From contig JAUNBR010000001.1 in NCBI GenBank assembly GCA_030527015.1, forward strand, positions 1 to 64,000: 64,000 nucleotides of DNA, written 5' to 3'. Each line of letters opens with the position of its first letter. Within the stretch, counting starts at the first letter, position 1. Under the pieces are notes generated by a model that did no database searches, was not told where the DNA came from, and worked only from the letters and a program-made list of their open reading frames with translations. A program made the position numbers and the translations under genes. Origin of the DNA: Planctomycetia bacterium (GTDB lineage Bacteria > Planctomycetota > Planctomycetia > Pirellulales > Thermoguttaceae). Of this stretch, positions 9,377 to 63,382 are shown one piece after another.

Positions 9377-9733
9377 CTTTTTTTTATATTTTTATCGCTG
9401 TTTGTTTTTAACCTGATTTTTTGGTTAAAATGGTTTTTTTGATGCCTTTTTTGTGTTTCATATGTTTTCATGGTATGAAGTCTAGAGGAAATCAAAAATT
9501 AAAGAGACAGGTGAAAATAATTAATGTTTGATAAATTTTGCCGCGTATGTTTTAGGTGGAATTTATTTTGAAAAGCAGACATACAGCTCTGACAGCGGCG
9601 TCTGCCGTTTAGAGTTGTTCCAAAATTGTCTTATGCCGGGAACAACCTTTTTTTATTTCTTAAAAAATCTTTCCAGGTATGATATAATAATATGGAAAAG
9701 TTCTGTTTTTTATTTTGATTTTTTAGATAAATC
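9377..9733. other. Non-coding stretch after tRNA-Gly
   Basis: Nothing convincing. A weak stem (CGGC/GCCG near 9595-9607) followed some way on by a T run at 9648-9654 could be an old terminator. Frames here are short and lack ribosome sites. Confidence 0.4.
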
Positions 9734-9837
9734 ATACTGATTTTACCTTAAATTTCCGTTTTGTGTGGCTCTGAAAGCGCGCATTTTCAGCGAAGCTAAA
9801 TGCCGAGGAAGCGGAAATTTATAGTGTATCGGATATA
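9734..9837 (-). mobile_element. TA-MITE upstream of tig
   Basis: Complete; ends about 58 bp before the start codon, so it probably lies in the tig leader or promoter. Confidence 0.87.
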
Positions 9838-9894
9838 TAATGATTTTATCTAGTGTTTTTGTATCATTCTGAAATAAATCCTGGGAAAAGTGCC

Positions 9895-11400
9895 ATGTCT
9901 GAAGATTCGTTATCTCCTGAAGTAGTAAATGATGAGAATGTCTCTGAGGTTTCCGAGAATACCGCTGAGGGTGAGAATCAGCAGCTTTTGCTGGACGTAA
10001 ATGTCGAGCAGCGCAGTGCGTGTGAGCGTCATATCACGGTAACGGTTGCGCGCGAGGATATCGATCGTTTTATGGACAAGGAATTTGACGAGCTGGTTCC
10101 AGAGGCGCAGATTCCTGGTTTCCGGCCGGGTCATGCGCCGCGAAAGCTGGTGCAGCTGCGTTTTAAGAAAGAGGTGGCTGAGCGTGTAAAAAGTGCGCTG
10201 CTGATGGAGAGTATGTCTCAGGTAAATGAGACGGAAAATTTGGCTCCGATCAGTGATCCAGTTTTTGATTATAATGCGGTGGAAATTCCTGATGCCGGGC
10301 CGCTGGTTTTTGAGTATGATGTGGAAGTGCGGCCGGAATTTGAGGTTCCGAACTGGCGTGGAATAAAAATAGAGAAGCCGGTGCGAGAATTTACGGATGC
10401 GGATGTAGACGAAGCGTTCCAGAATTTGCGTGCGCGTTCAGGAAAGTTAGAGGAAAAGGATGGCGCGGCGGTAAGTGGCGATTATATCGAAACGAAACTC
10501 AGTTTCCTGTATCATGGAGAAGTCATTAACAGCAGTGAGAAAGAGGTGATACGCCTGCGTCCACAGCTGACGTTTAATGATGCCACGCTGGAAGATTTCG
10601 ATAAGCAGATGGAAGGTGTAAAGGCAGGAGAAAGCAGAACGCTGAAATTAAAACTGTCGGATTCTGCGCCGAATATTCCTCTGCGGGGCCAGGAGGTGGA
10701 AGCGGTTTTTGAGGTGCAAAAAGTATCAGAACTGATTTTACCAGAGGTGAATGAAGAATTTTTCAAGGAACTTGGTTTCGAGAATCTGGATCAGGTTTTG
10801 GGTGCATTAAGAGTAAATCTGGAGCGTCAGTTGGTGTACCAGCAGGAGCAGTCGGCCAGAGAGGCGATTACCTCCATGCTGCTGAAGGATGCGGACTGGG
10901 ATCTGCCGCCAGCACTTCTGGAACGTCAGACGGAGCGGGAACTTTATCGGAACATGCTCGAATTACAGCGCTCGGGCTTCGCGATGCAGGACATTCAGGC
11001 GTATCAGAATGTTTTATTGCAGAACAGTCGCGAAAATACGGCAAAACTTTTGAAAGAGCACTTCATACTGGAACGTATCGCGGAAGACGAAAAAATTGAC
11101 GCGGAAGACAGTGATTATGATAATGAAATCGCGCAAATTGCGTACCAGACGCAGGAAAGCCCACGGCGCGTAAGAGCCAGGCTGGAAAAAGAGAATCGGA
11201 TGGACGTTTTGCGAAATCAAATTATAGAACGAAAAGTGATTGAGCTGATTATGGCGAATGCTGACTTCACGGAAACCACGTTTGAGCCGTATCCTGCGGA
11301 AGTTGCGTCGCTGAATATGCCGGCCGGTGGTGAGTCGGCACCGCAGTCAGAAGAAGAAGGTTCAGCAGAGGAAAGCTCTTCAGAAGAAAAAGACGCGTAA
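9895..11400 (+). CDS. tig: Trigger factor, ribosome-associated chaperone
   Basis: A 501-residue trigger factor. The ribosome-docking loop GFRPGHAPRKLV (about residue 75) carries the GFRxGxxP signature. A divergent FKBP-like domain follows (about 185-280), then the helical C-terminal chaperone domain and an acidic tail rich in Glu and Ser (last 30 residues) that is longer than in most homologues. The ATG at 9895 is preferred over an in-frame GTG at 9853 because the protein then starts just before the conserved domain and GGGAAAAG lies upstream. It heads a tig-clpP-clpP block, a known arrangement of folding and proteolysis genes; a terminator at 11476-11511 separates it from clpP. Confidence 0.95.
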   Translation: MSEDSLSPEVVNDENVSEVSENTAEGENQQLLLDVNVEQRSACERHITVTVAREDIDRFMDKEFDELVPEAQIPGFRPGHAPRKLVQLRFKKEVAERVKSALLMESMSQVNETENLAPISDPVFDYNAVEIPDAGPLVFEYDVEVRPEFEVPNWRGIKIEKPVREFTDADVDEAFQNLRARSGKLEEKDGAAVSGDYIETKLSFLYHGEVINSSEKEVIRLRPQLTFNDATLEDFDKQMEGVKAGESRTLKLKLSDSAPNIPLRGQEVEAVFEVQKVSELILPEVNEEFFKELGFENLDQVLGALRVNLERQLVYQQEQSAREAITSMLLKDADWDLPPALLERQTERELYRNMLELQRSGFAMQDIQAYQNVLLQNSRENTAKLLKEHFILERIAEDEKIDAEDSDYDNEIAQIAYQTQESPRRVRARLEKENRMDVLRNQIIERKVIELIMANADFTETTFEPYPAEVASLNMPAGGESAPQSEEEGSAEESSSEEKDA

Positions 11401-51184: not shown

Positions 51185-51886
51185 ATGAAAAGTATTAATC
51201 GCCGAACGATGCTTGCATCTTCTGTGCTGGCGGTGGGTGCCGCCTCACTGGGGATGGAGGAAGTAAATGCTAAAACGCGTCGTTTTGTAAGACCCAGTGT
51301 ACAGGAGAGTAATGTAATGAAGCGTTATCCGAATGAGTATTTTTATGATAAAGATGGAAAATTTATTGAAGAACGCGCAAAAGAAGCGTTTTATGAAATG
51401 TTCCGTTTTTATGGTTATGAAATCGTTCCACAGCTGAAAACTGCAGATTTTTGGGTGGTGGATTTTGGCTTGGGAGATTTCGCTAATTGTGGAATGGGTG
51501 GAATTTTCTGGATGAATAACCAGAAGTACAGTTATTTTGGTCATGAGATTTATCTGCTTCCTGGTCAGATGATCGCGGAGCATAAACATGTGAAGACGGA
51601 GTTCCCGTGCAAAATGGAATCTTGGCAGGTACGTTATGGTTCTGCGTATAATTTCTCGGAAGGTGAAGTGAAAAACGCCACACCAAAAGAAATTCCAGCC
51701 AGTCAGCGTGGGAAAACGATCTGCACTCAGTGTGAATATCTTGTAACAGGGGATATTCGTCATCTGGAAGTTCCTGAAACCTGGCACTTCCTTTTAGGTG
51801 GTGATAAAGGCGCGATTATTACTGAGTATGCAAATTATCATGATGGCGCCGGATTAAAATTCTCGAATCCTGATGCGAAATTATAA
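51185..51886 (+). CDS. Tat-exported cupin protein, lyxose-isomerase-like
   Basis: A 233-residue protein with a twin-arginine signal (SINRRTMLASSVLAVGAASL). The rest is a cupin-like barrel: YFGHEIYLLPGQMIAEHKHV has the first histidine pair, followed by MESWQVRYG with the Glu, and VPETWHFLLGGDKGAIITEY with the later His. This order resembles D-lyxose ketol-isomerases, which are normally cytoplasmic, so an exported version is odd; the substrate call is tentative. The ATG at 51185 is used because AAGGAG lies 7 nt upstream; an earlier TTG at 51167 would spoil the signal. Confidence 0.65.
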   Translation: MKSINRRTMLASSVLAVGAASLGMEEVNAKTRRFVRPSVQESNVMKRYPNEYFYDKDGKFIEERAKEAFYEMFRFYGYEIVPQLKTADFWVVDFGLGDFANCGMGGIFWMNNQKYSYFGHEIYLLPGQMIAEHKHVKTEFPCKMESWQVRYGSAYNFSEGEVKNATPKEIPASQRGKTICTQCEYLVTGDIRHLEVPETWHFLLGGDKGAIITEYANYHDGAGLKFSNPDAKL

Positions 51887-52602: not shown

Positions 52603-53280
52603 TTATGAAATGTCACAGGCGTCTGTCCAGCACGGATGATTTTTTATGCAGAGTTCCAGATCCGAATATTCCTTCCTCTGGTAAACCATCCATCGGGCAG
52701 GGCAGTAAATTTTCGCACAGCGTGCCATCTGGAGATCTCCCCAGCGGTGATCCGTGTTAAAATATCCAGACCAGTTAGGCTCAGACATATATCGGTGTAA
52801 TAATTTCATGATTCTGTGTCCGAATAATGCGAAAGCGTGTAAACGGTTTACATTATAAGGAATATAAACATGAGCATTTAGCGGCTGAGGGGCATGCCTG
52901 TCTTTATATAAATGCTGACCACCATAAAAAATCCACTCTGCATCGTGAGGAAGATGTGCGTGAAAGGTTTCTGCTCTCGCTAAAAAATCTTCACAAAATT
53001 CGGCATCATCCTGAAAGACCAGGAGATTTTCGGTACCTGCACTTAAACATTCTTCTAAAAGTCGCCGGTGAGCCAAGTAACATCCATAACTGCCGTGATG
53101 CCCCTTCCACCATGCAGGTAAAGAGAATTTTGTGCCATCAGTTCCTGAGTACTTTTCGATTTTTCCTTTCAGACAGTCTGGCAGGCCATCCAAAAAATGC
53201 GTCCATCTTTCTGGTCTTTTGGATAAGGTGATACATACGATACGTGAGTACATGGAAAAAATATCTTGAGTAATTATCAT
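52603..53280 (-). CDS. GT25-like glycosyltransferase in the phage block
   Basis: A 225-residue protein with ITLSKRPERW at the start, GSYGCYLAHRRLLEECL and LLVFQDDAEFCEDF, the pattern of family 25 (LPS/collagen-type) glycosyltransferases with the E/D-D motif. AAGGAA lies about 9 nt before the ATG at 53280. It is the last gene of the minus-strand phage block, so it may decorate a tail or capsid protein or the host surface; alternatively it is a host gene next to the block. Confidence 0.7.
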   Translation of the reverse strand: MIITQDIFSMYSRIVCITLSKRPERWTHFLDGLPDCLKGKIEKYSGTDGTKFSLPAWWKGHHGSYGCYLAHRRLLEECLSAGTENLLVFQDDAEFCEDFLARAETFHAHLPHDAEWIFYGGQHLYKDRHAPQPLNAHVYIPYNVNRLHAFALFGHRIMKLLHRYMSEPNWSGYFNTDHRWGDLQMARCAKIYCPARWMVYQRKEYSDLELCIKNHPCWTDACDIS

Positions 53281-53312
53281 AAACGAGTTTCCTTCTCATA
53301 TGGTAACTGCAT

Positions 53313-53415
53313 CATGCTGGTTTACTTTAAATTTTCGGGTTATGTGGCTCTGAAAGCAGGCATTTTCAGCGAAGAAAAATGTCGGAGAAACGAAATCTTA
53401 AAGTGCATCAGATAT
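53313..53415 (-). mobile_element. TA-MITE in phage block
   Basis: Between the GT25-like gene and the 287-residue protein. Confidence 0.83.
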
Positions 53416-53432
53416 ATAATTGGTCCATCCAT

Positions 53433-54296
53433 TTATTCTGGTAAAAATAGTAGACTAAAATCGGCTTCATCATAAATTTTAATGGAATTATTTACTGGAG
53501 GGCACCATGTGCCAGTGTTTCCACGAAACAGATGATTCCATCCGTAAACATTTCCGGAGTGATGAATGCACTGCTGGCGGAAAGTATAAGTAATTTGCCA
53601 TGTAAATTTTGACGCGCCGGCTTCCAGCGTGGAACGATAAAGTTTATTCGCGCTTATACCCTCAAAAAGTAGGGTTCCTGTGGGACAGTCAAGAAATTTT
53701 TGAGAATTAATTTTTCCCTGTGTTTCTTGAATGGTATTCCAGGGAGGTGAGATGACCATGCTCCATACCAGAGTATGAAGTGTCTGGGGAACCCGTTTCG
53801 TTATGATGGTATTTTCAGGGAGAGATTCTGTGCTTTCATTCCAGACCCAGCCAGAGACGGGGAGAAGTATTTCCTGTGGTTCGTAGGTGAGTCGGTAAGT
53901 TAATCTGGTTCCAGAAGAAATAGAAATAGAATCCACATCCTGCGTTCCGAGTGTTTCATATTCCACGGTCGCCAGAGCCCAAGAACCGGAATATGAATTT
54001 AAGGAAGTGTGCATCTGAGTGATTTCTTTTTTGTTGACGGCCATATCATCCACTGGTGAGAATGTAAGTTTTACTGGAAGCGCGTCAGGTCTTTTGGGAT
54101 AATAAGTGGAGTATGAATAATCGAATTCTTTCACATTTCCCATCACGTCATTTGCGAAAGCGTCTCTGTCGTCCCAGGCGACAAGAAATTTTCGGACAGC
54201 TTTAAATCCCTCGGAGGTGTAAATTTCAGAAGGAGAGCCACCCAGTTCATAAAATGGAACGGTGGTTAATGGTTCTGGAGTGATTATGTCGGCCAT
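53433..54296 (-). CDS. Putative phage structural protein
   Basis: A 287-residue protein with no recognised family. It has no signal peptide, is rich in Thr, Ser and aromatic residues, and has a beta-strand-like composition, as in phage tail or fibre proteins. AAGGAAAC precedes the ATG. It lies in the same direction as the capsid genes and one TA-MITE from the next. It could be the tail-tube protein by order (after the tail-completion-like genes at 55.6-56.7 kb), which is inference. Confidence 0.5.
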   Translation of the reverse strand: MADIITPEPLTTVPFYELGGSPSEIYTSEGFKAVRKFLVAWDDRDAFANDVMGNVKEFDYSYSTYYPKRPDALPVKLTFSPVDDMAVNKKEITQMHTSLNSYSGSWALATVEYETLGTQDVDSISISSGTRLTYRLTYEPQEILLPVSGWVWNESTESLPENTIITKRVPQTLHTLVWSMVISPPWNTIQETQGKINSQKFLDCPTGTLLFEGISANKLYRSTLEAGASKFTWQITYTFRQQCIHHSGNVYGWNHLFRGNTGTWCPPVNNSIKIYDEADFSLLFLPE

Positions 54297-54387
54297 GATA
54301 TGTTTCCTTATGAAAAAATATGTTCGTGAGAAAAATTGGTGTCTGGTTTATGGTTCTGATATACCGTGCGTTTCTTTTTTCGCGTTT

Positions 54388-54546
54388 TGCTCCCGATACA
54401 CTCTAAATTTCTGATTTTCTTGAATTTTATGATCCGTTCTCGGATGATACGGGCTCACCATGAAAGTTCCGTTTTGTGAGGTCCTGAAAGCAGGCATTTT
54501 CCTTGAGGAAAAATGGTATGGAAGCAGAAATTTATAGTGCATCGGT
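54388..54546 (-). repeat. TA-MITE left fragment plus an inverted copy, phage block
   Basis: A plus-oriented left end (CCCGATACACTCTAAATTTC) at 54388-54437 faces a nearly complete minus copy at 54446-54546. Confidence 0.72.
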
Positions 54547-54577
54547 TAAATGATGTGAGGTATTTCTGGAAGTAAGT

Positions 54578-55192
54578 CTAAACACTTCCTCCGGAAGGAA
54601 TTTCCACCGGGGAAGAGGAAGAAGGAGTATTTCCTCCGGAAGAAGTGCCTGACACGGATGAAGATGGTGAAGAGGTACTTCCTGGTTCCTGGTATTTTTT
54701 ACCAATAAATGCCAGATCATAGGAAGCATCATATTCTGACGGATTATAAATTTTTAAAATGTTCTCGCTGGCGGTGACACTCCATGCGGAACTTTCAGAA
54801 GAAATACATAAAAAACCACTGGCCGGAATCTGAAGAGTCTGATTATTTCCTCCTAAAAAAGCATTCCATGTAGATTCAGACGCTGCGCCGATCTGTAACG
54901 GACTCTGTGATGAATGGTTAATAATAAAAAATGTATTTACGGAACTGAAACGAAGATAAAAATAATTTTGGAATATTTCTTGAGGTAAAGATTCCAGATC
55001 ATAAAGATGCGTTCCATATGCGGGCAAAGAAATATTTTTCTGTAACCACGTGGCGTCTGCTGAAAGAGAAACTGATGAAAAATCAGTCTGTTTTTTTAAA
55101 TGGGTATGTTCTGTGTGCTGTCCATGAACATTATTTTCCTCGAATCTCCATCCGAGTTCTGCCTGTAATAATATTTTTTTTGTAAGTGTCAT
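54578..55192 (-). CDS. Putative phage structural protein with Ser/Gly-rich tail
   Basis: A 204-residue protein of unknown family. The C-terminal 40 residues are low-complexity Ser, Pro and Gly (SSPSSSVSGTSSGG). The first 160 residues are predicted mainly beta, consistent with a virion component. It sits between the 287-residue protein and the tail-terminator-like gene; a TA-MITE pair lies on each side. Confidence 0.45.
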   Translation of the reverse strand: MTLTKKILLQAELGWRFEENNVHGQHTEHTHLKKQTDFSSVSLSADATWLQKNISLPAYGTHLYDLESLPQEIFQNYFYLRFSSVNTFFIINHSSQSPLQIGAASESTWNAFLGGNNQTLQIPASGFLCISSESSAWSVTASENILKIYNPSEYDASYDLAFIGKKYQEPGSTSSPSSSVSGTSSGGNTPSSSSPVEIPSGGSV

Positions 55193-55235
55193 GATGTATG
55201 TAATCCTTTTTGTAAAATATTTTCATCCTGGTTTT

Positions 55236-55344
55236 AATACTCTGATTCTTCATTAAACTTCCGTTTTATGCGGCTCTGGAAGCAGAGGCATTTTCAGCGA
55301 AGCAAAATGCCGGAGAAGCGGAATTTTATAGTGTATCTGATATA
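55236..55344 (-). mobile_element. TA-MITE in phage block
   Basis: Complete; good stem GGCATTTT/AAAATGCC. Confidence 0.87.
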
Positions 55345-55383
55345 AATTTTGTTTTATGGAATCACAGAAACAGGTATTTTTGT

Positions 55384-55567
55384 GATTCTCGGTTTCACCT
55401 CAAATTTCGTTTTTTGCTGGTCCTAAACAGGTATTTTCAGCGAAGCAAAAATGTCGGTGAAGCGGAAATTTATAATGCATCGGATATAAAATGCTGAAAA
55501 AGTGGAAATTTATAGTGCCTCGGGGCATAAAATATCTGGAAAGTAAAATTTATATGGAAAAAGGTAT
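55384..55567 (-). repeat. TA-MITE plus two extra right-end fragments, phage block
   Basis: Complete copy 55384-55488; then two right-end fragments (about 55489-55529 and 55530-55567), each with GAAA/GTAAATTTATA. Confidence 0.75.
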
Positions 55568-55614
55568 AAAATAATTTTTAAAATATAAGTAGTTGTGCAT
55601 AAAATTTTACTGAT

Positions 55615-56010
55615 TTACGCATGTATACAGCAGATCACCTGAGTTTCCATGATCCACTGGTCATGCCTCAGGCACGAAATAACATAATATTTTGGATATA
55701 AAATCGTGGATAATTCGTGGTTCTCTATTTTTGTAAAATGAGTCTGGTGGAACAGGTACGTCTCTAGCTGCTGTGTTAAATCATCCAGTTTTTGACGGTC
55801 ATGAGCATAAAAGGTAATTTTTATTTTTGTGGATTTATAAAGATTTCCACCATTCGTATAATTTTCGGCCGTGATTTTCAGATCTTGAATAATCGCGTAA
55901 GGACAGATTTTATTTGAAGCCATTCCTGTAAAAATCTGTGAAACGTGAATGGTGTTCTGTAATTGTGGAATTTTTTGCCATAAATAACGAAAAAGAGCTT
56001 CTGTATTCAT
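55615..56010 (-). CDS. Putative tail-completion / minor tail protein
   Basis: A 131-residue protein starting MNTEALFRYLWQKIPQLQNT; size and pattern (small helix then a beta sheet, ITFYAHDRQKLDDLTQQLE) resemble DUF3168-type tail-terminator proteins. The ATG at 56010 overlaps the stop of the preceding gene (ATGA) and has GGAGG 4 nt upstream, so it is translationally coupled. The frame extends 12 residues further upstream but that is inside the neighbour. Confidence 0.5.
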   Translation of the reverse strand: MNTEALFRYLWQKIPQLQNTIHVSQIFTGMASNKICPYAIIQDLKITAENYTNGGNLYKSTKIKITFYAHDRQKLDDLTQQLETYLFHQTHFTKIENHELSTILYPKYYVISCLRHDQWIMETQVICCIHA

Positions 56011-56663
56011 TTTACCTCCAGATGATTCATTTTTTCCACGACACACCGAGAAATATTTCCTTCTAAAATGTTTGGGTGAAATTCTTTGACAAGAAATCGG
56101 CGACTGTCCGGCGTCTGAAAACAGTCGTTTTGCATGGGATCAATAAAAGTTTCAAAAAAAATCTCATAAAGTAACTCGTTAAAACCAGTCTTAGAAGAGG
56201 TTTCCAGAGGAATAATTTTTGCGTTAATTCCAGTCATTTTTAGTTCGTATTCAGGAACAGGCACTCCCATGTTATTTAAATTCCATTTAGCGCGAAAGAA
56301 ATGAAGCCAGGTGTCCAGTCCATATGTCAGACGAACGTCCAGCGTTTTACATTTCCAGCGCCCGGTAAGCGGGAAGTGTTTAGTCTCAAGAATCGTCCAA
56401 GAACTCTTCGACGTGTCCAAAATTTTATCGCCCGGAAGCGGAATCCACTTTTCTCCCCTGGCGTCATAAATTTCGTCAGTCAGGGTCCATATGGACTCCC
56501 GGCGAAATGTTTTAACGGCGTCTTCTGGTGCGGTAATTTTTATGTCAGACTGTACTGCGGCGGTAACAGACAGATTCTCGCTGCTTCCGGCACGTACCAT
56601 CTGCACATTTTGTGGTGAATCAATAATTTTTAAAAAATCTTTGCTCGGTATAAAATCACACAT
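56007..56663 (-). CDS. Putative phage connector/neck protein
   Basis: A 218-residue protein of unknown family with mixed alpha/beta character (WTLTDEIYDARGEKWIPLPG, WKCKTLDVRLTYGLDTWLHF). Position between the small 72-residue gene and the tail-completion-like gene fits a head-tail joining or neck role. Its stop codon overlaps the next start. No membrane segment or signal. Confidence 0.45.
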   Translation of the reverse strand: MCDFIPSKDFLKIIDSPQNVQMVRAGSSENLSVTAAVQSDIKITAPEDAVKTFRRESIWTLTDEIYDARGEKWIPLPGDKILDTSKSSWTILETKHFPLTGRWKCKTLDVRLTYGLDTWLHFFRAKWNLNNMGVPVPEYELKMTGINAKIIPLETSSKTGFNELLYEIFFETFIDPMQNDCFQTPDSRRFLVKEFHPNILEGNISRCVVEKMNHLEVK

Positions 56664-56831
56664 ATTACTCTGTTCCTGTTTTATTGAAAAACCAGCATAT
56701 TTTTCTGCATACGATAAATTTTACGAAGCAGGAGATTTTACGTGAAAAAGATACTTGGTTTCGTAACGGTATTATATAATAATTAGTTTTATTTTCGATT
56801 TTTTATGCTTCTGAAATCAGATATTTCTTAA

Positions 56832-56952
56832 ACCAGACGCACAATAAAATTTAGTTTTATGTGGCCATCATCAGGTATTTTCACCACAGTCTGGGGCAGT
56901 GAGAGAAGCAAAAATGCCAGAGAACTGGAAATTTAAGGGGTATCTGGATATA
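56832..56952 (-). repeat. Degenerate TA-MITE in phage block
   Basis: Has an extra CCACAGTCTGGGGCAGTGAG near the loop. Confidence 0.58.
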
Positions 56953-57171
56953 TCATGTCCTGGCATGAGTGCGAAGTTCACAATTATTACTGGCCATTAA
57001 TTGAGAGTCACACCAGGAAACCGTTTCTCTCAGCTGTTTCAGATACGTTTCCCACGAAACCGACTGACCGTCCAGGGAATAAGAAGGTTTTGGCGTGATG
57101 GTGATGTCCTCCAGATTCGCCAGTGCCTGTGCGCGAATTTTTTTTATACGCGTGAAATCTTCCTGATTCAT
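56953..57171 (-). CDS. Small phage protein (72 aa)
   Basis: A 72-residue protein; AAAGGAG lies 8 nt before the ATG at 57171, which is better than the upstream Met at 57189. The C-terminal half PSYSLDGQSVSWETYLKQLR looks like small head-tail-associated proteins of phages from related bacteria; I recognise the pattern but not a named family. Its stop lies at the end of a degenerate element. Confidence 0.5.
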   Translation of the reverse strand: MNQEDFTRIKKIRAQALANLEDITITPKPSYSLDGQSVSWETYLKQLRETVSWCDSQLMASNNCELRTHART

Positions 57172-57223
57172 ATTTATTTCTCCTTTCATTAATAATATAT
57201 TCTTTTAATATTTCATTTCACTT

Positions 57224-57327
57224 TATACCGGATGTACTATAAATTCCATTTCTCCGGCATTTTGTTTCGCTAAAAATATCTGCTTTCAGAGCTGCATAAA
57301 ACTGAAATTTAAGGGAAAACCAGTATA
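57224..57327 (+). mobile_element. TA-MITE in phage block
   Basis: Complete, moderately diverged. Confidence 0.83.
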
Positions 57328-57423
57328 AATTGAAGTTTCTTGCGGTTCTAAATGAAGTATTTTCTGTGAAGTATACACAGATTTTCCTTTACATTTTCGT
57401 TATATGATAAAATATTACTGATG

Positions 57424-57834
57424 TTAAATTACAAAAATTCGGAATCTTAAGATAATTTCTTTCTCATGCTGAGGGTCATCTGTCATGGTAAACCGATATA
57501 CCACTAAATAATCACGGTTCGTGAGTGTAAAAATAGTGCCATGAGAATTCGTTAAAGTATGACAAAAATTATATCCAGTTTCATCAATTATCCATCTTTT
57601 ATCTTTTTGTAATTCGGAATATAAAACATCATTTACTGAAAGACTAATGTTCGTATATCCTGTGACTGACTCCATTTTTTGTGGATCATCATTACTTAAA
57701 AGATAAATACTGTAATTAACAGAAGAAATGTTAGAGGGCGTCAGTACCTCTGCCTGATGACTGACTGCTCGCGCCATGAGGGTTACGCACCCACCCGTGA
57801 AAACATTTCCATAAATGTCCCGTGCAAGTGTCAT
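57424..57834 (-). CDS. Hypothetical phage protein (136 aa)
   Basis: A 136-residue protein starting MTLARDIYGNVFTGGCVTLM. AAAGGAAA precedes the ATG at 57834; the open frame continues 8 codons upstream without need. Beta-rich, no signal, no family recognised. It lies between two TA-MITE copies in the capsid block. Confidence 0.45.
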   Translation of the reverse strand: MTLARDIYGNVFTGGCVTLMARAVSHQAEVLTPSNISSVNYSIYLLSNDDPQKMESVTGYTNISLSVNDVLYSELQKDKRWIIDETGYNFCHTLTNSHGTIFTLTNRDYLVVYRFTMTDDPQHEKEIILRFRIFVI

Positions 57835-57872
57835 TTTAAATTTCCTTTCATAAGTCATTAAATTTTTTATTT

Positions 57873-57975
57873 TATACTGGATGTATTATATATGTTCTCT
57901 TTCCCGCCATTTTTTTTTCATTAAAAATACCTACTTAAGAACCGCACAAAACGAAAATTTAAGTAAAATCGTATA
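57873..57975 (+). mobile_element. TA-MITE in phage block
   Basis: Complete but old; lies between the 136- and 63-residue genes. Confidence 0.75.
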
Positions 57976-58000
57976 AACAGAACGGATGGAAAAATGTTTT

Positions 58001-58192
58001 TTATTTCTTCATTTCGTGCTCATCCTCAGGCAGTATATTTCCCTGATAAATAAATCCGGCCCGAACACTTTCGCTGTATACCATTCCGATGAATGGTAAA
58101 AAAATACCACTTCCTTCCGCCGGCCTCCGTCTGGTACCAGAATACCAGCCTAAAATTTTTCTAAAAAGATCAAAAAAACTATTTTGGCTCAT
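58001..58192 (-). CDS. Small phage protein (63 aa)
   Basis: A 63-residue protein that starts with ATG overlapping the stop of 58189-58746 (ATGA), so it is translated with it. Contains GTRRRPAEGSG and a hydrophobic middle (IFLPFIGMVYSESV). Function unknown. Confidence 0.45.
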   Translation of the reverse strand: MSQNSFFDLFRKILGWYSGTRRRPAEGSGIFLPFIGMVYSESVRAGFIYQGNILPEDEHEMKK

Positions 58193-58746
58193 GAGTGAAC
58201 TCCTATAATCGCATCTGCATTTTCGGAGGATAAAACGTTTAGTGAAGTGTGAAGTGTCTCACCATCACTGCGGCGAATATTCCAGAAATCTCCTTCCACT
58301 TTACTTTCAAGATGCGCAAGAATAATGGTGCACAGAGAATGAACGGGAGCGAGAGATTCGACTTCTGAGACATTTCTAGTTAAAATGGCATCTGAAATTT
58401 CCGCAGCTGTGGGTATTTCTGGTGCAGATGGAATATCACTTGCCACCACGTATGATTCTAAATAAAGTTCACATGGTTCTGATACGGCATTTTGTGTCGT
58501 GGAAGTAAATCTTAAAATAATATGACTGGCATTCGTCTGGGCAGCTGGCAGTAAAAGACGATAAACCCCTGGAAGATTCGTGGTGTCCATTTCCGTTATT
58601 TCAGGTGATGAAAGAACAGAAAAACTTCCTCCGTCCTTACTGATGTAAACAGTTAGTGTGTTTTGATTTTCATTAAGTACGGGAATTCCATTAAGATTAT
58701 CGTAAACATAAAATGTGACGGAAGTTGTGGTGTTTTTTTGAGGCAT
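58189..58746 (-). CDS. Putative phage tail/baseplate-type protein
   Basis: A 185-residue protein. The N-terminal half TLTVYISKDGGSFSVLS then LPGVYRLLLPAAQTNAS is a beta-sandwich pattern found in minor tail and receptor-binding-associated proteins of siphophages; the C-terminal SDAILTRNVSEVESLAP is a recurrent phage motif. AAAGGAGA precedes the ATG. The stop overlaps the next gene. Confidence 0.55.
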   Translation of the reverse strand: MPQKNTTTSVTFYVYDNLNGIPVLNENQNTLTVYISKDGGSFSVLSSPEITEMDTTNLPGVYRLLLPAAQTNASHIILRFTSTTQNAVSEPCELYLESYVVASDIPSAPEIPTAAEISDAILTRNVSEVESLAPVHSLCTIILAHLESKVEGDFWNIRRSDGETLHTSLNVLSSENADAIIGVHS

Positions 58747-58759
58747 ATTCGTTTCTCCT

Positions 58760-58993
58760 TTAATTCGTGGGTGTTAAAGTCCATACGTCATAAATAATTC
58801 CGTCGACAAGAGAATATGAATGATCCTTCTCGACATGTTTATTTTCGGAATCATGGCTGTTACTGGGAGAGTATGGGTATCCGATTCCGAGTGAATCGAG
58901 TAATTCATCCGAAGGATTCGTCGTTCGAATTCCATTATGGACGATTACCCGAATCTGTGAAATACTGTGTTCGTTAATAAATTGGTAACGCAT
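58760..58993 (-). CDS. Small hypothetical phage protein (77 aa)
   Basis: A 77-residue protein with an N-terminal strand-rich part (QIRVIVHNGIRTTNPSDELL). TTTAGGAGAAG lies before the ATG. It ends 14 bp before the start of the 185-residue gene, one of the few gaps in the block without an element. Confidence 0.45.
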   Translation of the reverse strand: MRYQFINEHSISQIRVIVHNGIRTTNPSDELLDSLGIGYPYSPSNSHDSENKHVEKDHSYSLVDGIIYDVWTLTPTN

Positions 58994-59042
58994 ATAATCT
59001 TCTCCTAAAAATGAGTGAAATTAAGTGATGCCTGACGCGTTA

Positions 59043-59248
59043 TATATCCGATGCATAATAAATTTCTGCTTCTCCGACATTTTTACTTCGCTAAAAATGC
59101 GTATTTTCAGAGGCGCACTAAACGGAAATTTAAGATGGAACCATATATCCGACGCATAATAAATTTTTGCTTCTCCGACATTTTACTTCGCTAAAAATGC
59201 GTATTCTCAGAGCAGCACTAAACGTAAAATTTAATATGAATCAGTAAT
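59043..59248 (+). repeat. Two TA-MITE copies in tandem, phage block
   Basis: Units at 59043 and 59143 share GCATAATAAATTT and AAATGCGTATT, so one arose by duplication of the other. Confidence 0.85.
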
Positions 59249-59267
59249 AGGTGATCTGGCTCCACAT

Positions 59268-59675
59268 TTACGCGATATAAGTGGACGTGACATGAGATTT
59301 TTGGACATCACAAAAAACAGTCTGCCCAGTTTTCTCCACAGCCAGACGGTAACAGGAATTCGCGGTGGGAATAAAAATACGCTCAGGCGTACAGTCATCT
59401 CCATTAAAAATCCATGAATCTGGACTGGAAAGAACGGTAGGATTATTTCCTGAAATAAAGTTTAATCCGCCGTAATTAAAATCTCCACTGATACTGATCG
59501 TCAGGGATTCTAAAGCAGTTTCATAATTCTGAATGCTGTTATCTGTAAGTGTGACTGTAACCGTACTGGAAGTGGAATCTGAAGCATACTGTGTTTTCCT
59601 TTCCAGATTTTCGTGTGCGTCCTGATCCAAGTTATGTTTTAATATAATTGCCTGAGGCGGTATGGAAAGAGTCAT
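59268..59675 (-). CDS. Hypothetical phage protein (135 aa)
   Basis: A 135-residue, beta-rich protein (TVTVTLTDNSIQNYETALES). ACAGGAGAA precedes the ATG. It follows the major capsid gene, where decoration or connector proteins are often found. No family recognised. Confidence 0.45.
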   Translation of the reverse strand: MTLSIPPQAIILKHNLDQDAHENLERKTQYASDSTSSTVTVTLTDNSIQNYETALESLTISISGDFNYGGLNFISGNNPTVLSSPDSWIFNGDDCTPERIFIPTANSCYRLAVEKTGQTVFCDVQKSHVTSTYIA

Positions 59676-59759
59676 ATAATTCTCCTGTAAATGATAAAAA
59701 TGAGAAAGAAAAAAAGGTTTCTTTTCCCGAAACGCTAAAATTTTTCGTTTCTCTAAAAC

Positions 59760-59889
59760 TTATATATCTGAAACGCTATAAATTTCATTCCATCAGTATT
59801 TTTGCTTCACGGCCAGCATCAGGTTTTGGAAAAAGCACCGTCTTTCGTGTCCGGGTGATGTAAAAATTTAAGGTAAAATCAGTATTTTG
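59760..59889 (+). repeat. Degenerate TA-MITE in phage block
   Basis: Left end TATATCTGAAACGCTATAAA clear; a further right-end fragment lies at 59917-59941. Confidence 0.62.
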
Positions 59890-59984
59890 CATGATGTTAT
59901 ATGATTTACTTTGACCGGCATTTTATAGTGCATCGGGTATGAAAACGGATATATCATTCTGTTTTACCGATATTTCATTTCGTC

Positions 59985-60100
59985 GTACCGGTTTCACATT
60001 AAAATTAATTTTTAAGTGGTTCTAAACATAAACGTTTTTCTCGCGATTTACTGCTGTCATGGAGGCGAAGCTCCGTGGAAGTGAAAATTTATAAGACATG
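59985..60100 (-). repeat. Degenerate TA-MITE in phage block
   Basis: Central loop replaced by a new stem, GGAGGCGAAGCTCC. Confidence 0.6.
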
Positions 60101-60117
60101 CAGCAAAAAAGGAAAGG

Positions 60118-60223
60118 TATACTGGTTCTCGTCAAAATTTCTGTTTTGAAGGGATCTGAAAACCAGCATTTTCAGTGAAACAAAAATGCCTGCGGAACGG
60201 AATTTTATAGTACATCGGGCATA
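60118..60223 (-). mobile_element. TA-MITE abutting the capsid terminator
   Basis: Complete; its end lies in the T tract of the capsid terminator. Confidence 0.87.
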
Positions 60224-60264
60224 AAAGGGAAACAGTCTTCGTATGGAACCAAAAGACTGTTTCC
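60224..60264 (-). terminator. Terminator of the major capsid gene (minus strand)
   Basis: GGAAACAGTCTT pairs perfectly with AAGACTGTTTCC (12 bp). On the minus strand the stem is followed by CTTTTAT. The element at 60118-60223 starts inside this T tract, at a TA. Confidence 0.8.
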
Positions 60265-60277
60265 GAAAGAACGTTAT

Positions 60278-61444
60278 TTAACCTTTATTACATATGACGC
60301 AGCGTGGATCCAGTACCGCAGGAGTTCCTCTTTCGCTGGCTTTAAATCGAATTAAAATATCCTGTGAAAAATCAGCTTCACTGAATCGTGAAGATCGGGT
60401 GACGGTAATTGGCCAATTTTCGATATACGCGAATGCTTTTTTGAAATCGCCGATATACCAGTATTCTTTAGCGTCTGCAGCACTAATATTTTCACCAAGA
60501 AGCAGCCGATACGCGAATGCACTGTCAAGAACTTTATAATCCTGAAGTGGATTTACCGTGGAAGTCATTCTTTGACCACTGGCAGAAGACCAGGAAATTT
60601 CGCTACTATTAAAGATCCGTGCTGCGGAATAACGTTTTCCGGGCATGACAAGAATAGTGTTAGACTTCATCAGAATCGGTTCTTGCGTGTTCGGGTCCAG
60701 CATATTAGTGAAAAGCTGCTCTGCCGTGTCCACGTTAGTCCAGTCTTCTAAAGAATTTCCACTGATTTCATTAATCCACGGAGCAGAAGCATCTGTGGAA
60801 CTATAATACGTGTCATAATTTACGCCATTTCTGTTATAGGTGTTTGTGATTCCGAGGATCATCTTCAAAATGCGTTTTTCGCGGTCTATTCCTAGTATTT
60901 CTCCTACTTCTGAAGCTCGGCGCAAAATGAGGCCGGTCTGATCATAAAAAATAGCTTCTCTAGTAACGGGAACGATTAAACCATGTTTTGTCGTTTCTGG
61001 TGTGTCGACATATTCCTCTCCGAAACCCGCATGTGGATATTTCATGCCTTCATGAATTTCCAGGGATTTTGATTCTATTTTTCCGATTCCCGCGATTCGT
61101 TCTTTGGCCATTCTTGAAGAAATGGTATCCACAAGTTTTGACGTGACGAAAGATTCGTGCCGATAAGATTCGAGAATTTTTGAGAGGATAATTTGTCCTG
61201 AAATATTCAGAAAGGAAGTGGTGTCTACTGCCTCTCCTTCCATCAGGTAATCTCCGGCGCGGGGATCCAGAGTTCTGACCCACTCTCTTCCGTCAGAGAT
61301 CGTGGCCTCTGCCAGATCTCGAAAACTAAAATCCTCGGGTGATAAATCCTTATTTTGTAATGCTTCCACAAGATGTTCTGTGGTTTTTTTGGGGCCATCT
61401 AAATCAAAACGTCTTTTTAATTCTCGGTAACAAATCGTTTTCAT
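60278..61444 (-). CDS. Phage major capsid protein
   Basis: A 388-residue protein with a helical N-terminus, then the pattern of a large capsid fold: TISDGREWVRTLDPRAGDYL, HGLIVPVTREAIFYDQTGLI (a typical capsid E-loop/P-domain segment), SNTILVMPGKRYSAARIF and a C-terminal FKASERGTPAVLDPRCVI. It follows a protease and a cement protein in the usual late-gene order. AAAGGAAAAGG lies before the ATG. A perfect 12-bp terminator stem follows the stop (60228-60264), as expected for a highly expressed capsid gene. Confidence 0.72.
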   Translation of the reverse strand: MKTICYRELKRRFDLDGPKKTTEHLVEALQNKDLSPEDFSFRDLAEATISDGREWVRTLDPRAGDYLMEGEAVDTTSFLNISGQIILSKILESYRHESFVTSKLVDTISSRMAKERIAGIGKIESKSLEIHEGMKYPHAGFGEEYVDTPETTKHGLIVPVTREAIFYDQTGLILRRASEVGEILGIDREKRILKMILGITNTYNRNGVNYDTYYSSTDASAPWINEISGNSLEDWTNVDTAEQLFTNMLDPNTQEPILMKSNTILVMPGKRYSAARIFNSSEISWSSASGQRMTSTVNPLQDYKVLDSAFAYRLLLGENISAADAKEYWYIGDFKKAFAYIENWPITVTRSSRFSEADFSQDILIRFKASERGTPAVLDPRCVICNKG

Positions 61445-61580
61445 AACCTTTTCCTTTCAAAATTTACTGTAAAATGTTTTGGGTATAAATAAATTATACT
61501 TTGTTTTTGAGCGATACTCGATACACGATAACCTTTCACTTTTTGTGGCCGATATTCGATAAAATTTTGTTTCAGGCATT

Positions 61581-61686
61581 TATATCCGAGACACTACAAA
61601 TTTCTGCGTTCACGGCATTTTTTCTCTAAAATTTTATGGGGAGATGAGCCGCACAAAACGGAAATTTTAAAAATAGAATCCGATAA
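61581..61686 (+). mobile_element. TA-MITE upstream of the capsid gene, probably nested
   Basis: Follows TTCAGGCATTTA of an eroded copy that starts near 61513. About 137 bp upstream of the capsid start. Confidence 0.75.
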
Positions 61687-61855
61687 AATTACATGAAATA
61701 TCTTATTACTCAGGCTTCACAAAAAAATGAAATATTAATTCACCACGAACATAATCACAAAACTGAGGGCATTATGATCGTGTTTTAAATGAGGATGCAG
61801 ATAAATTCGGAAACCCATCATCCTCCGCATGAATCGGGAAAATAATCCAGATATG

Positions 61856-62326
61856 CTAACATCCACCGCACATAACGGAAGAAGTAATGGTCACGTATAC
61901 CGTTCCTGGTTCCACATCCATAATGTGTGAAACACGGCCGAGCGCCTGTGTTTTACTGCTTACCGGAACCAGTGTCTGATTTTCCAGCGCAGAAGCGTCG
62001 GAGTTATCATCCACTCCGACAAGAGATCCTAAAGTAACCTCCGCTCCAGTTTTATTGAACTGGAACGTGCCAGTCGTGGCGACACGAATCGGGGAATCGT
62101 TTCCCGCAGGGCTTTCTTGCATCGCGATACCTAAGAAATTTGGCGTAAAAGTGGTTTGTGCTGCACTGAGTGAAGCGCCAAAACTTGACGTGCTGGCAGG
62201 CTCTGCTTTTTTACTGGAAGTGTTAAACCATAACAGATCGCCACGATGAATCACAGTCGACGCGTCTACCGGCGTGATAATAGGATTCGTTTCTCCCCAG
62301 CGCCAACGAAAATTGTAATTAGTCAT
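61856..62326 (-). CDS. Capsid cement / decoration protein (DUF2190-like)
   Basis: A 156-residue protein with VIHRGDLLWF, FLGIAMQESP and TTGTFQFNKTGAEVTLGSLV, the pattern of DUF2190-type capsid decoration proteins, which lie between protease and major capsid genes in many siphophages. AGGAGA precedes the ATG. Confidence 0.65.
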   Translation of the reverse strand: MTNYNFRWRWGETNPIITPVDASTVIHRGDLLWFNTSSKKAEPASTSSFGASLSAAQTTFTPNFLGIAMQESPAGNDSPIRVATTGTFQFNKTGAEVTLGSLVGVDDNSDASALENQTLVPVSSKTQALGRVSHIMDVEPGTVYVTITSSVMCGGC

Positions 62327-62368
62327 AATTTTCTCCTGTTAAAATAAAATGTAAAATGGATCTGAAAT

Positions 62369-62474
62369 TATACTGCTTTTCCTTTAAATTTTTGTTTAGT
62401 GCAGCTGAGAAAGCAGGAATTTTTACCGAAGTAAAAATGACCGGGAATCGGAGATTTACCGTGTATCGTGTATT
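62369..62474 (-). mobile_element. TA-MITE in phage block
   Basis: Complete older copy; stem changed to AATTTTTAC/GTAAAAAT. Confidence 0.75.
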
Positions 62475-62558
62475 AAAATTCTCAAAATTCCAGAACTACT
62501 TTCGTTACAACAAAAAACGAAAATGAAAGGATCTTTCCAGTTTATGGTCTTTATGTTT

Positions 62559-62661
62559 TTACTCGTTTTCACTTAAATTTCCGTTTTTTGCGGCTCTAAA
62601 AAGGCATTTCATGTGAAGCAAAAATGCGGAAGAAGCGGAAATTTATAGTGTATCTGGTGTA
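62559..62661 (-). mobile_element. TA-MITE after the protease gene
   Basis: Complete; ends 22 bp before the protease stop on the minus strand. Confidence 0.82.
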
Positions 62662-62683
62662 AAATATTTTATAGGACAAAAAC

Positions 62684-63382
62684 TTAACGAAGGATGGAAC
62701 GCACAAAATCTTTCGTCGTGAAGTTTTGCGTCATGTTAATATTTTGTTCGCGAGATGTCGGTGCCTGAAAGCTTTTCGTGTTATCCTCACGAAGGTGAAG
62801 TTTATCGATAAGTTCTTTCATTTCTTCCAGCTGTGTTTTTATGGAATTTAGCTCTTCTTGAAGTGAATCCTGACGCAGGTGAGCATTCCATGATTCAAAA
62901 AGTCCCGTGGTCGTGGCAGGGTCTGCGACCAGATCCACACTATTTACACATAAGATTTTTTTTACCTGAACTTTCCCGTCCACGCGTTCTGTAATGGCAC
63001 GAACATTATGAGAAAACCCAACATTTTTTGGGGAATGTTCCGCATCCCAAATTAATTGTTCTGCTAAAAAGTGGTGTGGATTAAAATACAGATCAGCAAA
63101 AAGTCCCGCATTTTGTTGAAAAATAACATTTCGAATATTCCCCAGCCGGTCCTGATAATCTCTTGGCGAAGTGGGATCACCTTTTGGATGATTAATATTT
63201 ACTTTCGCCCCCTCATAAAAAATAGTTGCTTCATCCAGGGCTTCCGGTGCGTAATTTCTTCCATTACGTGATTCCAGACCAAGAATTTTTACGCCGTGAA
63301 TGATTCCTTCTTCACGATTTACACGCATGGTTACACCATGTGAGTGTACATACTCATGGAGAACCTGTTCTGTTTCTTTCAT
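62684..63382 (-). CDS. Phage prohead protease fused to scaffold-like coiled coil
   Basis: A 232-residue protein. Residues 25-165 match the Mu-type head-maturation protease (GVKILGLESRNGRNY, VNINHPKGDPTS, VNSVDLVADPATTTGLFES). Residues about 168-195 are a coiled coil (LNSIKTQLEEMKELIDKL) that could be a short scaffold; the end is basic. AAGGAG lies before the ATG at 63382. It is the first gene of the block inside the window; portal and terminase genes would be expected further right, outside the window. Confidence 0.7.
   Translation of the reverse strand: MKETEQVLHEYVHSHGVTMRVNREEGIIHGVKILGLESRNGRNYAPEALDEATIFYEGAKVNINHPKGDPTSPRDYQDRLGNIRNVIFQQNAGLFADLYFNPHHFLAEQLIWDAEHSPKNVGFSHNVRAITERVDGKVQVKKILCVNSVDLVADPATTTGLFESWNAHLRQDSLQEELNSIKTQLEEMKELIDKLHLREDNTKSFQAPTSREQNINMTQNFTTKDFVRSILR

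Follow-up and report, generated by a model that had tools for sequence, protein, structure and literature searches.

Do the phage head genes at positions 52603-63382 of this planctomycete DNA belong to a prophage, or to a particle that the host lineage has made its own? The window, a stretch of 64,000 nucleotides, covers positions 1-64000 of a 129,373-base contig (JAUNBR010000001.1) in a 3.84 Mb draft genome (GCA_030527015.1), whose nearest genomes belong to Thermoguttaceae, Pirellulales and Planctomycetia, several of them from ruminant guts. An earlier note on the window had read the interval as a long-resident prophage under selection, possibly a domesticated capsid or a gene transfer agent (GTA)-like particle. 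In support of this reading, and as far as sequence comparison can tell, related genomes carry orthologous, single and intact copies that co-diverge with the host, with purifying selection, invariant packaging-motor residues, modules split between loci and losses of tail genes. We conclude, with a probability of about 0.7, that the interval forms the left portion of a domesticated cluster of phage head and packaging genes, inherited vertically in Pirellulales and most likely GTA-like.

The major capsid gene is found in 49 of 60 sampled genomes of the order Pirellulales, across about 20 families and mostly at 50-69% identity; it is present in all seven congeners and in the majority of genera and families sampled. 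Cultured carriers include Botrimarina colliarenosi Pla108 (L069), Bythopirellula polymerisocia Pla144 (L091) and Aeoliella straminimaris ICT_H6.2 (L061). Nearly every carrier holds a single copy, and none of the matches contains an internal stop. In a class-wide sample the capsid is present in 91 of 298 genomes, and in a phylum-wide sample nearly all matches fall inside the class. In the carriers, protein distances follow those of the host marker RpoB, with Mantel correlations of 0.84 for the capsid, 0.87 for the portal, 0.80 for the large terminase subunit TerL and 0.86 for the concatenation, values that none of 2000 permutations reach. The capsid and RpoB trees have 15 of 26 bipartitions in common (permutation maximum, 2), and capsid distance increases at just 1.2 times or so the rate of RpoB distance. 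These comparisons indicate that the cluster is inherited vertically in Pirellulales and co-diverges with its host.

A survey of the ratio of nonsynonymous to synonymous substitution rates (dN/dS) across relatives, which the earlier note had proposed for the capsid genes, gives medians of 0.10-0.25 among close pairs for the 13 genes tested, all under purifying selection. The catalytic residues of TerL are conserved in 63 of 63 sequences, specifically the Walker A motif (G/A)PRG-x-AKST, the DD of Walker B and the D, E and D of the nuclease; one sequence has C as the fourth Walker A residue. In the head maturation protease, the H of the N-H motif is present in all ungapped rows, and the S and H of the G-F-S-H motif are present in 100 of 100. 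With invariant TerL catalytic residues, and with selection also acting on the small terminase subunit TerS and on the portal, the pattern is that expected from selection on DNA packaging rather than on a shell alone. Judged from the motifs, the intact TerL residues would permit, though only permit, the packaging of random host DNA.

Across the order, the genes follow the sequence ParB, ABC/GNAT, TerS, TerL, portal, protease, cement, capsid, a set of variable surface genes, g78, g218, a tail-terminator-like gene, g204 and g287. The packaging and head modules do not always lie together. They are about 28 kb apart on a single contig in G022 and on different contigs in G017, G028 and G045, where host genes continue past the module ends; additionally, the modules are inverted in G021 and swapped in G041. 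Since the two modules occupy separate chromosomal places in some genomes, excision as one prophage is impossible there, and the two-locus layout precludes self-packaging in one piece. The host flanks are not conserved between the genome of the window and its congeners, three of which have one flank in common. Upstream of the packaging module, a gene of about 190 residues recurs beside a trypsin-like protease gene (L323:13598-14164, L026:3510-4121).

The whole block in the present genome comprises 21 genes over 19.2 kb and extends past the right end of the window to contig position 71789, with host genes that end at 51886 on its left and begin at 72622 on its right. The earlier note had described protease, cement, capsid and smaller late-phage genes, all on the minus strand, all open and mostly preceded by strong ribosome sites, and so they are: in the open-reading-frame list of the window, 52603-63382 holds 14 open genes, all on the minus strand, and an AGGA/GGAG-type (Shine-Dalgarno-like) motif precedes 14 of 14 starts in the interval and 18 of 21 in the whole block. 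In order of their position in the cluster, the interval starts with the head maturation protease (232 residues, 62684..63382; phrog_15531, E 1.3e-4, with order-wide orthologues), the cement or capsid decoration protein (156 residues, 61856..62326; PF09956, E 1.4e-6, over the curated cut-off) and the major capsid protein (388 residues, 60278..61444; PF25209, E 5e-12, single copy in this genome). Five genes of narrower distribution or less certain role follow, namely a lineage-specific small structural gene (135 residues, 59268..59675; four genomes only, this one counted), a small gene of 77 residues (58760..58993; three genomes, this one counted), a putative head-surface or structural protein of 185 residues placed between capsid and neck (58189..58746), a 63-residue gene coupled to it (58001..58192; seven genomes) and a structural protein of 136 residues (57424..57834; 18 genomes). 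Next come g78, which is head-tail connector-like (72 residues, 56953..57171), always stands right after the capsid region in 29 genomes and is kept in free viral relatives, and g218, a neck or head-completion protein (56007..56663; 30 genomes) that precedes a gp10-like protein or tail terminator in free relatives. The tail-terminator-like protein (55615..56010) has a weak match (phrog_78, E 1.7e-4) and occurs in 24 genomes; g204 (54578..55192; phrog_22694, 1.5e-6) is a jelly-roll protein by AlphaFold2 and Foldseek, possibly a vertex or turret-like decoration, and g287 (53433..54296) is assigned to the tail-tip region by gene order, as it follows the tape measure in free relatives. At the cluster end lies an accessory family 25 glycosyltransferase (52603..53280; PF01755, 1.3e-6), found in this genome only, 1 of 35.

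To the right of the window, where the earlier note had suggested looking for portal, terminase, integrase and lysis genes, the portal (contig 64010-65344; PF05136, 7e-22), TerL (65647-67353; phrog_38, 8e-71) and TerS (67350-67802; phrog_4102, 1.5e-11) are present; integrase and lysis genes were not recognised. The block continues with an ABC-ATPase/GNAT protein (68192-69283; phrog_11143, 8e-101), a ParB-like protein (69301-69954), a trypsin-like protease (70190-70930) and a last gene of 173 residues (71268-71789). Searches of the 21 block genes against Pfam and PHROGs recognised no integrase, replication, lysis or tape-measure family, no tRNA lies beside the block, and PADLOC gives only partial matches to shared domains and no defence system. 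No att site was seen, att repeats not having been searched exhaustively owing to the hairpin elements described below. The integrase, replication and lysis genes, full tail and att sites of a complete inducible prophage are therefore not what the block presents; neither this nor the widespread frameshifting in relatives that the earlier note had named as counter-evidence was encountered, since neither an att nor a tRNA site was observed and the capsids of the relatives are all free of internal stops.

The structural model of g204 is a jelly roll (predicted local distance difference test score, pLDDT, 88) with weak Foldseek similarity to virus jelly rolls (template modelling score 0.3-0.4), including the turret of a tailed archaeal virus. 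For the model of g287 (pLDDT 87), the matches are all to Caudovirales proteins that are uncharacterised (best E 5e-15), with nothing significant in the PDB. In G030 and G042, LamG/ConA-lectin proteins are encoded between capsid and neck (L024:17356-18183, L026:17660-18508), and the 185-residue gene of the window fills the slot of these LamG proteins. From their position, the LamG/ConA-lectin proteins are candidate head-surface binding proteins or adhesins.

Copies of a 105-nucleotide imperfect hairpin with TATAC/GTATA-like ends (fold -34 kcal/mol) lie in gaps between the genes. As the earlier note had noticed, the larger gaps hold these elements and the coupled or very short ones do not: every block gap of at least 152 bp has at least one, and there are none where genes overlap or stand 13 or 17 bp apart. 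A profile built from the window finds 20 elements in 52603-63382 and 36-38 in the whole block. The argument that such insertions in a late operon point to domestication turns out to be weak, because the elements occupy nearly all intergenic DNA of this genome. Specifically, over 120 kb of the contig the profile matches 224 times (about 1.9 per kb), and the density per noncoding kb is 7.5 in the block, 5.75 in the left flank and 5.76 in the right flank. Only one element is centred in coding sequence, in the right flank; the block itself and the left flank have none of this kind. The same profile has no match in the clusters of five congeners, which suggests a recent massive burst in the present species. 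The elements were therefore rejected as the main evidence of domestication, host gaps being similarly dense and the congeners' clusters free of them; at most, they show that the block was already resident during the recent burst.

Among 50,697 named phage records, none matches the capsid, and the nearest relatives of TerL are Mu-like phages (RcapMu, BalMu-1, Mushu) at 29-35% identity over 78-92% of the length. Capsid matches in IMG/VR fall into two sets. Those 50-60% identical (L145, L152, L154, L156 and others) nest within the host clade in the capsid tree and are most likely host chromosome, that is, host DNA catalogued as virus. In contrast, those 40-48% identical form separate branches. 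They include contigs that encode a gp10-like protein, a tail terminator, a tail tube and a chaperone as well as a tape measure of 543-921 residues, followed by g287; contigs that are long enough also carry DNA polymerase A, SNF2 helicase, RusA or a PD-(D/E)XK nuclease. With both tail and replication genes, these are phages. Such free siphophage-type relatives (L177, L185, L197, L201) share with the cluster orthologous protease, cement, capsid (about 40-48%), neck, tail-terminator and g287 genes in the same order, but differ in having their own gp10-like protein, tail tube, chaperone and tape measure and, on contigs of sufficient length, genes for replication. No gp10-like protein was found near the cluster in the host lineage. 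Some members of that lineage have a tail tube near the cluster, the genus of the window has none there, and a rumen subclade also lacks the tail-terminator. A genome-wide tail-tube profile search finds none in 16 of 24 other genomes and one weak match in congener G003. On this evidence the tape measure and gp10-like protein appear to have been lost in the host lineage, and the tail tube too in the present genome.

Several observations weigh against a GTA-like cluster, among them the state of the tail. No tape measure was found near the cluster in any member of the host lineage, and the genome-wide profile search, at the sensitivity used, finds no tail tube anywhere in the present genome; lacking both, ordinary injection is doubtful. 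Certain families of the order do not have the cluster; the capsid is mostly missing from one large family and is missing from some nearly complete genomes, so the cluster can be lost. G022 has a truncated portal (149 residues) beside a serine recombinase (L317:8101-9765 and 9641-10090), which may point to insertion or decay in this single genome. At 66, bootstrap support for where the domesticated clade ends is modest, which makes the placement of the deepest branches, G041 and G045, uncertain. Alphaproteobacterial GTAs have a low-carbon protein composition; here, at matched GC, capsid and protease are slightly higher in carbon and the other genes no different.

GTAs are defined by six features, namely Caudoviricete origin, endogenisation, vertical inheritance, random host DNA, undersized particles and delivery (PMC9662315). 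Three of the six can be read from sequence, and all three are found: Caudoviricete-derived proteins (portal, TerL, TerS, cement, capsid and protease by Pfam and PHROGs), full and often multi-locus endogenisation (a block between host genes, with modules apart in four genomes and rearranged in two), and mostly vertical inheritance with host co-diversification (Mantel correlations of 0.80-0.87, shared bipartitions far above the null). Like the RcGTA-like agents (Rhodogtaviriformidae), the cluster is a Caudoviricete head and packaging set that is vertical within an order, occupies more than one locus and is without integrase or replication genes (PMC9662315); unlike them, it occurs in an unrelated host phylum, its TerL comes closest to that of Mu-like phages, tail tube and tape measure are lost in the lineage of the window and its composition is not low in carbon. 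The Bartonella GTA (BaGTA, Bartogtaviriformidae) is likewise a host-maintained, multi-gene domesticated phage that co-evolves with its host, and it is associated with run-off replication (PMC2697382). In contrast to Mu-like phages themselves, no transposase or Mu-like replication gene is recognised here and the copies are single and fixed. Phage-ZRK32 of a deep-sea planctomycete was considered as this cluster and rejected, being described as extrachromosomal (PMC10945688).

Could each genome simply have acquired, on its own, a prophage of some Planctomycetota phage lineage, either an ordinary one or one that became defective recently? The genes of the block are recognisably phage, many such pieces are listed as viruses in IMG/VR, and related free phages exist. 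Yet each genome has one copy, the trees are congruent with the host, decay is not seen across the order, two-locus arrangements occur, and the block has neither a recognised integrase or replication gene nor an adjoining tRNA, so that we regard this explanation as highly improbable. A domesticated capsid with a use other than gene transfer, such as a protein compartment, an anti-phage decoy or a shell that exports or stores DNA without delivery, would account for the loss of tail tube and tape measure, and an isolated protease-cement-capsid trio exists at one locus in the distant relative G061, from another order. A protein shell would have no need of the invariant TerL ATPase and nuclease residues or of the strong selection on TerS and portal, and the tail-terminator and neck proteins are kept. 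Nor does the cluster resemble an encapsulin nanocompartment, which is an HK97-fold shell with a cargo enzyme and without portal or terminase, since portal, TerS, TerL and protease are present and constrained. Such a non-transfer use is unlikely, though it deserves some weight.

Capsid-forming phage-inducible chromosomal islands (PICIs) are mobile islands that carry head genes, an integrase and regulation of their own but no tail. The cluster resembles them in having no tail, but their mobility features are not seen and its inheritance is vertical, which places it outside that group. A resident head could still join the tails of infecting phages, as these islands do: the head and neck interface is complete without tail tube or tape measure, and a tail-terminator-like protein is present in 24 genomes. 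Against such borrowing, neither an integrase nor PICI-type regulation is seen, inheritance is vertical, some members keep their own tail tube and a rumen subclade has lost the tail-terminator; we give it only a very slim chance.

Under the preferred explanation, a domesticated GTA-like cluster, capsid, cement, protease and portal would assemble a DNA-tight procapsid, and TerS and TerL would cut host chromosomal DNA and translocate it into this procapsid. ParB, the ABC/GNAT protein and the trypsin-like protease may assist or regulate the process, and g78, g218 and the tail-terminator-like protein would close the head. Delivery without a regular tail might use a very short tail built from neck proteins, borrowed tails, or DNA-filled shells that are released and taken up in some other way. 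By inference, such particles are made, are loaded with random host DNA and hand it on, perhaps via a very short or missing tail; on this view the cluster may act as a working gene transfer agent.

Another part of the same class has a portal-protease-cement-capsid cluster of its own, separate and distant from the present one (L268-L276, L282, L287; families f22 and f26). Some nine genes downstream of it are conserved, one of them for a short tape-measure-like protein (247 residues). This cluster is single copy, and its distances track those of RpoB (r 0.835; permutation maximum 0.816; n = 11). The G061 locus has just protease, cement and capsid, flanked by host genes. A bolder proposal, in which Pirellulales possess a GTA that has lost tail tube and tape measure and moves host DNA in tail-less or tail-borrowing capsids, and another order of the class has a second, distant and likewise host-inherited head-tail cluster, is tentative, and we would not yet favour it.

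Neither a planctomycete GTA nor a domesticated prophage was found described in the open-access literature searched, a scope that leaves most subscription papers and preprints outside. Proven GTAs have been recorded in just a few lineages and are hard to recognise from sequence (PMC11841831). The present GTA-type domesticated phage cluster, with its new phylum and its reduced tail, looks previously undescribed. Public virus catalogues, as the IMG/VR pieces suggest, count these host genes as viruses. If the GTA-like explanation is true, the GTAs would gain a further phylum, Planctomycetota, through a cluster that spans an order, is inherited vertically, occurs in cultured isolates and is neighboured by living phage relatives with tails. 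The lineage would offer a stepwise view of how a phage is tamed, and the function of such particles would become directly testable.

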